From an uncultured Prochlorococcus sp. (GTDB lineage Bacteria > Cyanobacteriota > Cyanobacteriia > PCC-6307 > Cyanobiaceae), in NCBI GenBank assembly GCA_902594875.1, contig CACJNU010000005.1:1-64000 (forward strand): DNA of 64,000 bases. The letters run 5' to 3'. Positions 22,379-25,605 of the stretch are shown piece by piece (position 1 is the stretch's first letter; the number at the start of each line of letters is the position of its first letter). The position numbers and the translations under genes were made by a program. Under the pieces are notes generated by a model. The model saw only the letters and a program-made list of their open reading frames with translations, searched no databases and was not told the DNA's origin.

Positions 22379-23386
22379 TTAACCCCATTTAATTAGGGCT
22401 GCACCCCAACTTAACCCAGCACCAAAACCACTTGTAGCAATAATATCATTTTGTTTAATTCTACAATCTCTTACAGCCTCATCCATCATTAATGGAATTG
22501 TTGCTGCTGATGTATTGCCATATTTTTCTAAATTGCTAAGAATCTTTTCTCTGGGAATTTTTAACCTTTCTCCTACAGAATCCAATATTCTTTGATTAGC
22601 TTGATGTAGCAAGAGCCAATCAACTTGATCAGAATTATATTTCATTTTTTTCAACAACTTTTCAAGAATTAAGGGAACTTCTTTAACTGCGAATTTATAA
22701 ACTTCCTGACCATTCATTTGAATTGGAGAAAAACCGCCACTTAAAAAGTCAATTTCATCAACTATTGAATCTTCATTTTTTTTTGATGGAAGATTAAGAA
22801 AAGAGCCCCTTCCCCCATCTGTTCTCATATCAAAACCTATAAAATTATCAAATTCATTTGTGGCTTCAATTGCTAATGCACCGGCACCATCACCAAAGAG
22901 AATACAACTTCTTCTATCGTTCCAATCAACAAAACTTGATAATTGATCTGCTCCAATAACAATAGCCCTTTTAAAACTACCCCCTTTTAAAAATTGTGAG
23001 GCTGTTATTAAAGCAAATAAAAAACCACTACAAGCTGCAGTTAAATCGAAAGCTACAGCATTTACTGCCCCTAATTTGGCTTGAATGGATGGGGCGGATC
23101 CAAATAAATCATGTGGAGTAGAAGTCGCTAAAACAATCAAATCAATCGTTTTAATATCCCAATTAGCCATTTCTATAGCAGTTAGAGCAGCCTTATAACC
23201 CATCTCAGTAACATTATCTTCTACGCTTGAGATTCTTCTCTCAGAAATACCAGTTCTAGATTGTATCCATTCATTGCTTGTATCAACCTTTTGACTAATT
23301 TTTTGATTGGTTAGGATTTGATCAGGTACATAACTTCCGCTTCCCTTGAATGACACTCCAATCTGATTCAAATTTATTCCTTCCAA
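22379..23386 (-). CDS. fabH: 3-oxoacyl-ACP synthase III
   Basis: DLTAACSGFLFAL, LLLHQANQRILD, GNTSAATIPL motifs. Confidence 0.96.
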   Translation of the reverse strand: MEGINLNQIGVSFKGSGSYVPDQILTNQKISQKVDTSNEWIQSRTGISERRISSVEDNVTEMGYKAALTAIEMANWDIKTIDLIVLATSTPHDLFGSAPSIQAKLGAVNAVAFDLTAACSGFLFALITASQFLKGGSFKRAIVIGADQLSSFVDWNDRRSCILFGDGAGALAIEATNEFDNFIGFDMRTDGGRGSFLNLPSKKNEDSIVDEIDFLSGGFSPIQMNGQEVYKFAVKEVPLILEKLLKKMKYNSDQVDWLLLHQANQRILDSVGERLKIPREKILSNLEKYGNTSAATIPLMMDEAVRDCRIKQNDIIATSGFGAGLSWGAALIKWG

Positions 23387-23439
23387 AAGAGTTTTTTAAT
23401 TGCTTATATTAGTCAAACATAAATTTGACTCAATATGTT

Positions 23440-24858
23440 TTATGAATTTAAAACTTGAAGCTTTTGCAGTTGATTTAAATTGTCCATAACACCATGATTC
23501 ACTGCAGAATGAGCCAAACGAAGAGCACTAACTACTGATAAAGATTTGCTACTTCCATGACCAATTACGCAAATACCATTCACCCCAAGTAACAAAGCTC
23601 CTCCATGTTCGGCATGATCTAACCTTTTCTTAATTCTAAGTAGATTACTTCTTAAAAAAGCTGAACCAACTTTCCCCCGCCTTCCACGTGGCAGCTCAGA
23701 TCTCAAAATATCTAATAAAACTCCTCCCACAGATTCAAGAAATTTCAATAATATATTTCCAGTAAATCCATCACAGACTACTACGTCGAAACTACCTGAT
23801 AATACATCTCGCCCTTCACAATTGCCTCCAAAATCAAAACTTTTTTCAGAAGATAATAATTCAAATGTTTTTAGGGATAAATCATTACCTTTACATTCTT
23901 CTTCTCCAATATTTAAAAGGCCAATTCTTGGTTTTTGTACTTGTAGAACATCTTTTGCATAAATATTACCTAGAAGAGCAAATTGATGCAGATAAGATGG
24001 CTTACAATCAGTATTTGCACCGACATCTAAAACCAATACCGGACGAGTTTGATCCCTTGTTGGAAACAATGCTCCTATAGCTGGTCTATCAATCCCTTTC
24101 AATCTTCCAATTCTAAATATGGCAGAAGCCATCATGGCGCCTGAATTACCTGCTGAGTAGACAGCTTCAGCTTTATTATTTCTCACTAAATCCATTGCTA
24201 CGTTTATACTTGCATTTTTCCTTTTTCTAACTGCGGTAGCTTCTTCATTCATCCCAATAGGCTCTCCACTATCGATTAATTCAAGACGATTATTATCTAT
24301 TTCATTTTCTAATAATTCTGATAAACCAGTTTTTTCTGCTGCATCTTTAACTTTTTCAATTTTGCCGACAAACTTTATATTTATTGGGAATCTGCTTATT
24401 GCTTCAAGGCAACCTTCTAGAATTGGACCGGGAGCATAATCTCCACCCATACCATCAACTGCGATCCAAATTCTTTTAGATTGAATGTCTTCTTCCTTAT
24501 CTAAAATATTATCGCTATTTTGTAATCTTTTTAATGGGTCAAAAACTAATGGCTGTAATGTATTTTTCGCTATTGAGCTAGCATTTGAAACAACACTACT
24601 GGCAGTATTCACAACAGATTCAGCGCTTGAAACTACATTACCTGCAACATTACCTGCGACATTACTCGCAACATTACTAGCAGTGGTCACAACAGAACCA
24701 GCACCAGAAACTACATTACCCGCAACATTACTAGCCGTTGCCGCAGAACTAGCAGCAGTATCTACTATTGAAGTGACAGCCGAATTTCTTTTGTACCAAA
24801 TAACTAATCTTCTAATAGCTCTGGACTTGTTAATTTTTTGCGCTGTTTCTTTCCCCAT
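23440..24858 (-). CDS. plsX: Phosphate acyltransferase PlsX with about 128-residue N-terminal extension containing repeats
   Basis: Canonical PlsX start IAVDGMGGDYAPGPILEG lies at about residue 131; upstream is Ala/Ser/Val/Asn repeat sequence in frame. Confidence 0.93.
   Translation of the reverse strand: MGKETAQKINKSRAIRRLVIWYKRNSAVTSIVDTAASSAATASNVAGNVVSGAGSVVTTASNVASNVAGNVAGNVVSSAESVVNTASSVVSNASSIAKNTLQPLVFDPLKRLQNSDNILDKEEDIQSKRIWIAVDGMGGDYAPGPILEGCLEAISRFPINIKFVGKIEKVKDAAEKTGLSELLENEIDNNRLELIDSGEPIGMNEEATAVRKRKNASINVAMDLVRNNKAEAVYSAGNSGAMMASAIFRIGRLKGIDRPAIGALFPTRDQTRPVLVLDVGANTDCKPSYLHQFALLGNIYAKDVLQVQKPRIGLLNIGEEECKGNDLSLKTFELLSSEKSFDFGGNCEGRDVLSGSFDVVVCDGFTGNILLKFLESVGGVLLDILRSELPRGRRGKVGSAFLRSNLLRIKKRLDHAEHGGALLLGVNGICVIGHGSSKSLSVVSALRLAHSAVNHGVMDNLNQLQKLQVLNS
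24565..24753 (-). repeat. Repeat-encoding part of plsX N-terminal extension (12-nt units acattacctgca / acattactagca; 11-residue protein periodicity)
   Basis: Four near-identical 12-mers at 24635-24682, two more at 24713-24736; protein TASNVAGNVVS/GAGSVVTTASN/VASNVAGNVAG/NVVSSAESVVN/TASSVVSNASS. Confidence 0.85.
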
Positions 24859-25605
24859 TTATTTACCGTCAAAAGGAGCAATATCAACAATCCGTTGAAA
24901 AAGATATCCTGTACCCCTTGCTGTCAAAATTAATTCAGGATTTGCTGGATCAGCCTCAAGTTTTGATCTTAATCTTGATATATGAACATCTACGACTCTC
25001 GTGTCTACATGTCTCTCGGGGGTATATCCCCAAACTTCTTTCAAGATCTCTCCTCTACTAAAGGGCTCTCCTGACCTACTTACCAAAAGCTCTAAGAGAC
25101 TAAATTCCATTCCAGTTAATCTTATTCTTTCATCACTTTTAAAAACTTGTCTTCGATTTGTATCAATTTTTATATCCGTTACCAAAATTAATCCTGAATT
25201 AGGCATTCCAGGAATCTGTTCTTTGTCGATTCTTCTAAGAACACACCTAATTCTAGCTTCTAATTCCTTTGGGCTGAATGGTTTTACTACATAATCATCA
25301 GCCCCTAATTCTAAACCTGTTATCCTATCTGCGACATCTCCTAATGCAGTTAACATAACGATTGGGACATCAGAATCTTTCCTTAATTCTTGACAAACTC
25401 CATAACCATCTAGCTTTGGCATCATGACGTCAAGCACTACTAAATCAGGTTCATAATCCTTAAATAACTTAAGTGCTTCTTTACCATCACTTGCAGTTAC
25501 AACTTTGTAGCCAATCATGGAGAGACGTGTCTCCAGAATTCTTCTAATACTTGCCTCGTCATCTGCGACCAGTATAGTTTCTTTAGTTTGACTAGATAGA
25601 GCCAT
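24859..25605 (-). CDS. rpaB: OmpR-family response regulator RpaB (Ycf27)
   Basis: VADDEASIRRILETRLSMIGYKVVTASDGKEAL receiver and winged-helix C-terminus; RpaB-like. Confidence 0.9.
   Translation of the reverse strand: MALSSQTKETILVADDEASIRRILETRLSMIGYKVVTASDGKEALKLFKDYEPDLVVLDVMMPKLDGYGVCQELRKDSDVPIVMLTALGDVADRITGLELGADDYVVKPFSPKELEARIRCVLRRIDKEQIPGMPNSGLILVTDIKIDTNRRQVFKSDERIRLTGMEFSLLELLVSRSGEPFSRGEILKEVWGYTPERHVDTRVVDVHISRLRSKLEADPANPELILTARGTGYLFQRIVDIAPFDGK

Follow-up and report, generated by a model that had tools for sequence, protein, structure and literature searches.

The window analysed here, a 64,000-nucleotide stretch of DNA from an uncultured Prochlorococcus sp., contains on its minus strand an ORF (23440-24858, 472 aa) encoding a PlsX protein in which the catalytic core is preceded by a long N-terminal sequence. 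What is this additional sequence, and what might it do? Identification of the protein is based on matches to Pfam FA_synthesis (E 9e-102, residues 132-458) and NCBIfam plsX (E 6e-109); TIGR00182 (364 bits, curated cut-off 243) and PF02504 (341 bits, curated cut-off 29) are matched over their whole length. The solved PlsX structures 1U7N, 1VI1 and 6A1K match the core (residues 129-472, 23440..24474 on the minus strand, stop codon included) with E values of about 1e-67 to 1e-66. The IAVDGMGGD motif starts at residue 132. As the PlsX start codon of other cyanobacteria usually lies about 10 codons upstream of the D in DAMGGD, about 128 N-terminal residues are extra. A previous sequence-only reading had located the canonical start at about that distance into the ORF, which the position of the motif bears out, and the basic head and repeat sequence that it quoted are both present as given.

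The plsX locus and distribution of the extension

From its N-terminus the protein consists of a basic head (RAIRRLVIWYKR), a 66-residue repeat of A, V, S, N, G and T, the segment LQPLVFDPLKRLQ, a loose linker and the ordinary core. A response regulator, judged by eye from its sequence to be RpaB-like (24859..25605, minus strand), abuts plsX upstream, the plsX ATG being immediately 3′ of its TAA stop (TAAATG). Downstream lies an ORF (22379..23386, minus strand; TTG as start in the ORF list) which we take to be a FabH-like ketoacyl-ACP synthase III. Within 22379-25605 the genes thus lie in the order RpaB-like regulator, PlsX and FabH-like, with no gap between the first two, an arrangement that might link a stress regulator with lipid synthesis. 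A mechanically called ORF of 137 aa runs antisense to the extension (24485-24898, plus strand) and is probably a by-product of the codons of the repeat.

PlsX was found in 374 of 400 genomes of the family Cyanobiaceae, and in 247 of the 248 of good quality. Direct reading showed the head in 263 loci and the head together with the tail in 257, some of these loci being duplicates; with the exception of genus g33, all full-length Cyanobiaceae PlsX loci that were read have the extension. The sequence-only reading had named a lack of conservation in sister strains as refuting its proposal; this check was run and did not refute it. Outside the family, a profile of the extension gave no match in about 256 other cyanobacteria (from a class sample of 292 genomes), and the extension is absent from the 20 of 20 non-Cyanobiaceae cyanobacterial PlsX loci read. 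In the core tree, four basal sequences (genera g48, g56 and g68) have the head without the repeat; three of them carry a clear tail-like segment of proline and basic residues, and just a few residues separate it from the head. Most simply, head and tail are the older parts, and the repeat expanded between them later. In genus g33 (L162 and L163), placed with branch support 94/67 and on long branches, PlsX has an Arg-rich N-terminus (RRAIRRIRRIRRLSRQ) without a clear LVIWY motif, possibly a diverged head.

The protein of the window also matches NF010419 / PRK13845, "putative glycerol-3-phosphate acyltransferase PlsX", in two stretches (890 bits, equivalog cut-off 729). As this model has 440 positions, about 100 more than the plain plsX model (337), the extension is already included in databases; the entry gives no function for it, and no description of a PlsX "N-terminal extension" was found in the open-access literature. 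No standalone paralogue of the extension was detected in its own genome at E 10. Second plsX-extension fragments occur in three assemblies that are 4-7% contaminated (G178:C5:10736-11005, G212:C132:9896-10267 and G252:C7:319-483), the first with a frame of 120 aa only; they are probably contig-end pieces of second plsX copies and, less probably, a standalone gene.

Sequence pattern of head, repeat and tail

The head (residues 13-34, RAIRRLVIWYKRNSAVTSIVDT; 24757..24822, minus strand) and the tail segment (residues 101-113; 24520..24558, minus strand) contain residues that are invariant among 50 Cyanobiaceae PlsX: R17, L18, V19, W21, Y22, R24, V28 and V32 in the head, and P108, R111 and L112 in the tail. 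Residues 13-24 have a hydrophobic moment of about 0.55, and the head places W and Y among five arginine/lysine residues. A signal peptide or transmembrane helix was rejected by reasoning, the hydrophobic run being just five residues long and flanked by basic residues, and the mean hydrophobicity of 18-residue windows reaching at most about 0.47.

The repeat (residues 35-100; 24559..24756, minus strand) is built mainly of small residues (A15 S15 V14 N9 T5 G5), with one E and one K as its sole charges and neither proline nor aromatic residues; 45% of it is hydrophobic and 3% charged. This composition holds for 148 distinct repeats, which show zero proline, 2.4% charged, 0.06% aromatic and 47% hydrophobic residues. 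The maximum moment of the window repeat at 94-104 degrees is 0.257, against 0.108 ± 0.033 for composition-matched shuffles (p 0.0005), and along the resulting helix A, V or I occupy 21 of 23 residues of one face while polar residues occupy 23 of 25 on the opposite face. The averaged spectrum of the 148 repeats peaks at 99 degrees with a power of 8.0 (shuffled maximum 1.2), and individual peaks, from 136 sequences, average 99.4 ± 1.5 degrees per residue. A beta repeat was discarded, power at 160-180 degrees being 1.39, near background; the class correlation of -0.77 at lag 2 also argues against it. A type I antifreeze-like 11-mer was set aside on account of habitat and the lack of regular Thr spacing.

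The sequence-only reading had described the repeat as consecutive 11-mers. This stands for the hydrophobic/polar pattern, whose correlation is 0.49 at lag 11 (0.51 at lag 4, 0.59 at lag 7, and recurring at lags 18, 22 and 26), and fails for the residues themselves, since identity at lag 11 is at background level (0.16). Identity in the window repeat is instead 0.34 at lag 4, 0.32 at lag 7, 0.35 at lag 18, 0.32 at lag 22 and 0.47 at lag 26, and identities and indels run in units of 4, 7, 11, 18 and 22. Therefore, the 11-mer is a fair register, not the unit of repetition. Repetition at the DNA level is weak, with a single 12-bp array of 3.6 copies. As judged from these patterns, the repeat has an alpha-helical 3-4 spacing into which an 11/3 register fits. 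On 11/3 geometry its moment is 0.23-0.31, near the values published for perilipin 4 (0.257) and alpha-synuclein (0.30); that of an ALPS helix is 0.48 (PMC5889406). The proposal of a long amphipathic helix is upheld for a weak pattern of 3.6-3.67 residues per turn, and the extension bears every sequence sign that would be expected of a long, weakly amphipathic helix on a membrane surface.

Across the family the repeat ranges from none to about 84 residues. The head-to-tail distance takes 24 distinct values. These keep phase with a period of 3.64 residues (R 0.60; p 5e-5 when compared with random lengths), while periods of 3.0, 3.5 and 4.0 give no signal, and the length step of about 3.64 residues equals one turn of a helix. 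As the duplicated units are 4, 7 and 11 residues long, slippage may explain part of this phase-keeping, and such lengths could follow from duplicating units of these sizes.

Placed on one ideal helix, head and repeat have hydrophobic faces that differ in direction by about 130 degrees; a hinge between them is therefore expected. A cap for the second helix could be provided by N25, which hardly varies in the alignment. For the full protein, AlphaFold2 predicted no confident structure in the extension (pLDDT 26-39), and for the isolated extension a low-confidence helix at 5-50, with pLDDT 78 at residues 11-20. Such low confidence would be expected for a conditional helix, and also for a disordered linker. 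The weak tendency of V, T, G, N and S to form helices counts against a helix. Searching solved structures with the extension profile gave chance hits only (best E 0.025).

Competing readings and selection on the extension

Taking the patterns together, we regard it as rather probable that the extension serves as a peripheral membrane anchor of PlsX. An alternative that we consider unlikely retains the head as the sole membrane element and makes the repeat an inter-protein packing helix, of the glycine-zipper or Alacoil-like type, pairing two PlsX subunits or docking on PlsY, ACP or FabH. A face of small A and V residues with AxxxG/AxxxA spacing suits close helix-helix packing, the repeat is almost free of charges, and its strongest hydrophobic correlation is the one at lag 7. 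However, the spectral peak corresponds to 3.62 residues per turn, and the length phase to 3.64, whereas a canonical coiled coil has 3.5, where the length signal is 0.23; the flanking E/K positions of ordinary coiled coils are missing, and a copy number differing so greatly among species would be odd for a fixed docking site.

The remaining readings depend on how the extension is selected, for which pN/pS was calculated from 59 distinct 472-residue Prochlorococcus PlsX genes. It is 0.029 in the head, 0.092 in the repeat, 0.018 in the tail and 0.066 in the core; the linker (residues 114-128; 24475..24519, minus strand) reaches 0.42 and the variable residues 1-12 (24823..24858, minus strand) 0.27, their ATG start codon being present in 59 of 59 sequences. 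Head, repeat and tail are under purifying selection of a strength comparable to that on the core, or greater. Replacements within the repeat stay in the hydrophobic or polar class in 15 of 17 cases (59% expected, p 0.01).

The repeat being less constrained than head and tail, and highly variable in length, it might be mainly a spacer from a membrane-bound head to the core, with slippage setting its length and composition and with amphipathy of little function; the basal genera with a head and no repeat fit this as well. We nevertheless consider it quite unlikely, as helical periodicity exceeds that of shuffles in every repeat-bearing member tested, replacements conserve class, proline is entirely missing from the 148 repeats and length stays in helical phase.

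The codon-level pattern indicates that the extension is translated and selected as protein. In Prochlorococcus the start codon, chosen by rule, is ATG; other relatives have TTG or GTG in most cases. That translation starts near the core in vivo, leaving the extension as an upstream frame that is untranslated or rarely translated, is a reading consistent with the start site usual in other cyanobacteria and with an ATG that directly follows the upstream stop without an obvious Shine-Dalgarno sequence, but we consider it very improbable and largely refuted already, given pN/pS of 0.02-0.09 in head, repeat and tail, the absence of ATG, GTG and TTG in the window from residue 84 to the core motif, the fact that no internal start codon is conserved across the family (ATG in just 7 of 187 loci) and the conservation of the extension peptide across genera.

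Proposed membrane attachment and known systems

In the anchor reading, an anchoring module would have been added to PlsX in the picocyanobacterial ancestor. Each PlsX dimer would make strong contact, through its two short basic, aromatic heads, with anionic lipids of thylakoid or plasma membranes. The helix that follows, which is long, uncharged and weakly hydrophobic, would lie along the surface as a low-affinity "Velcro" strip whose length can be adjusted, and the dimer would double both elements. The LQPLVFDPLKRLQ segment and the linker would connect this helix to the enzyme, so that the anchor would hold acyl-phosphate production beside the membrane enzyme PlsY, which is encoded in the genome; the product of PlsX thus has its usual acceptor. 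We infer that the extension folds on the membrane, with the head as its main anchor, and that flux is affected. The head is the more likely anchor because the repeat helix is weak and because two 33-mers of perilipin 4 alone stayed cytosolic (PMC5889406); by analogy with these data, 66 residues of so weak a helix alone would stay cytosolic too. PlsX of Synechocystis, whose lineage lacks the extension, has been localised to thylakoids (PMC6878006), which, along with the 20 loci without it, implies that other cyanobacteria do not require the extension for membrane association.

In B. subtilis, PlsX is held to the fluid membrane by a nine-residue tip peptide (residues 253-261), and mislocalisation slows growth (PMC6702220). 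The tip is likewise a short amphipathic element of the same enzyme, whose peripheral localisation is important for growth, but it lies inside the core stem tip and is not an N-terminal extension; by the paper's own account it is not well conserved outside Bacillus (PMC6702220). The corresponding segment in the window (GRRGKVGSA, residues 392-400; 23659..23685, minus strand), aligned to T253-A261, shows G/R/R/K/V/A in place of the pattern T253/L254/T255/K257/L258/A261. At the position equivalent to Leu254, all 212 Cyanobiaceae sequences read have Arg, as part of an Arg-Arg tip, and 18 of the 20 other cyanobacteria have a hydrophobic residue. A hydrophobic stem tip may have been replaced by the extension. 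L254E is tolerated in B. subtilis PlsX, so the tip arginine may be tolerated too.

CTP:phosphocholine cytidylyltransferase (CCT-alpha) is a eukaryotic, unrelated enzyme whose much more charged helix regulates catalysis. We consider it improbable that the extension is its convergent, amphitropic counterpart, in which a nearly uncharged 11/3-type helix would sense how lipids are packed in the thylakoid or plasma membrane, set phospholipid precursor supply, have replaced the core tip and be tuned by repeat length in whole turns. CCT-alpha likewise acts in phospholipid synthesis and has an 11-mer amphipathic helix (PMC5889406), which provides a works-like analogy only.

The extension is a lineage-specific addition to PlsX, selected as protein, with a variable-length alpha-amphipathic repeat; most likely it serves as a membrane anchor, which would make it a further form of PlsX membrane targeting. 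As part of an early enzyme of phospholipid synthesis, it bears on the matching of phospholipid supply to the state of the membrane in bacteria, in a family that includes, with Prochlorococcus and Synechococcus, some of the most abundant photosynthetic cells. Its length differs naturally between species, the repeat ranging from none to 84 residues, and this provides a ready series for studying recruitment or regulation by a weak helix.

Kinship with perilipins or synucleins, to which the repeat had been likened, found no backing, as 45 extension sequences gave neither a perilipin nor a synuclein match in Pfam at E 0.1; the extension appears analogous to their helices, without homology. Like perilipin 4, the repeat is long, repetitive, rich in small residues, almost devoid of aromatics, weak in moment and 11/3-compatible (PMC5889406). 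Perilipin 4, however, is 15% charged, consists of exact 33-mers over 968 residues and coats oil droplets (PMC5889406), whereas the PlsX repeats are 2-3% charged, with irregular 4/7/11 units, at most 84 residues and a strong basic head. Synuclein 11-mers are rich in lysine and glutamate, unlike a repeat with one of each charge sign in 66 residues. ALPS-type lipid-packing sensors are similarly poor in charges, but their bulky hydrophobics are nearly absent from the PlsX repeats, which use mainly A and V. Weak helices of small residues are best known in eukaryotic lipid-droplet proteins, and their use by a bacterial enzyme would, if true, be a case of convergence.
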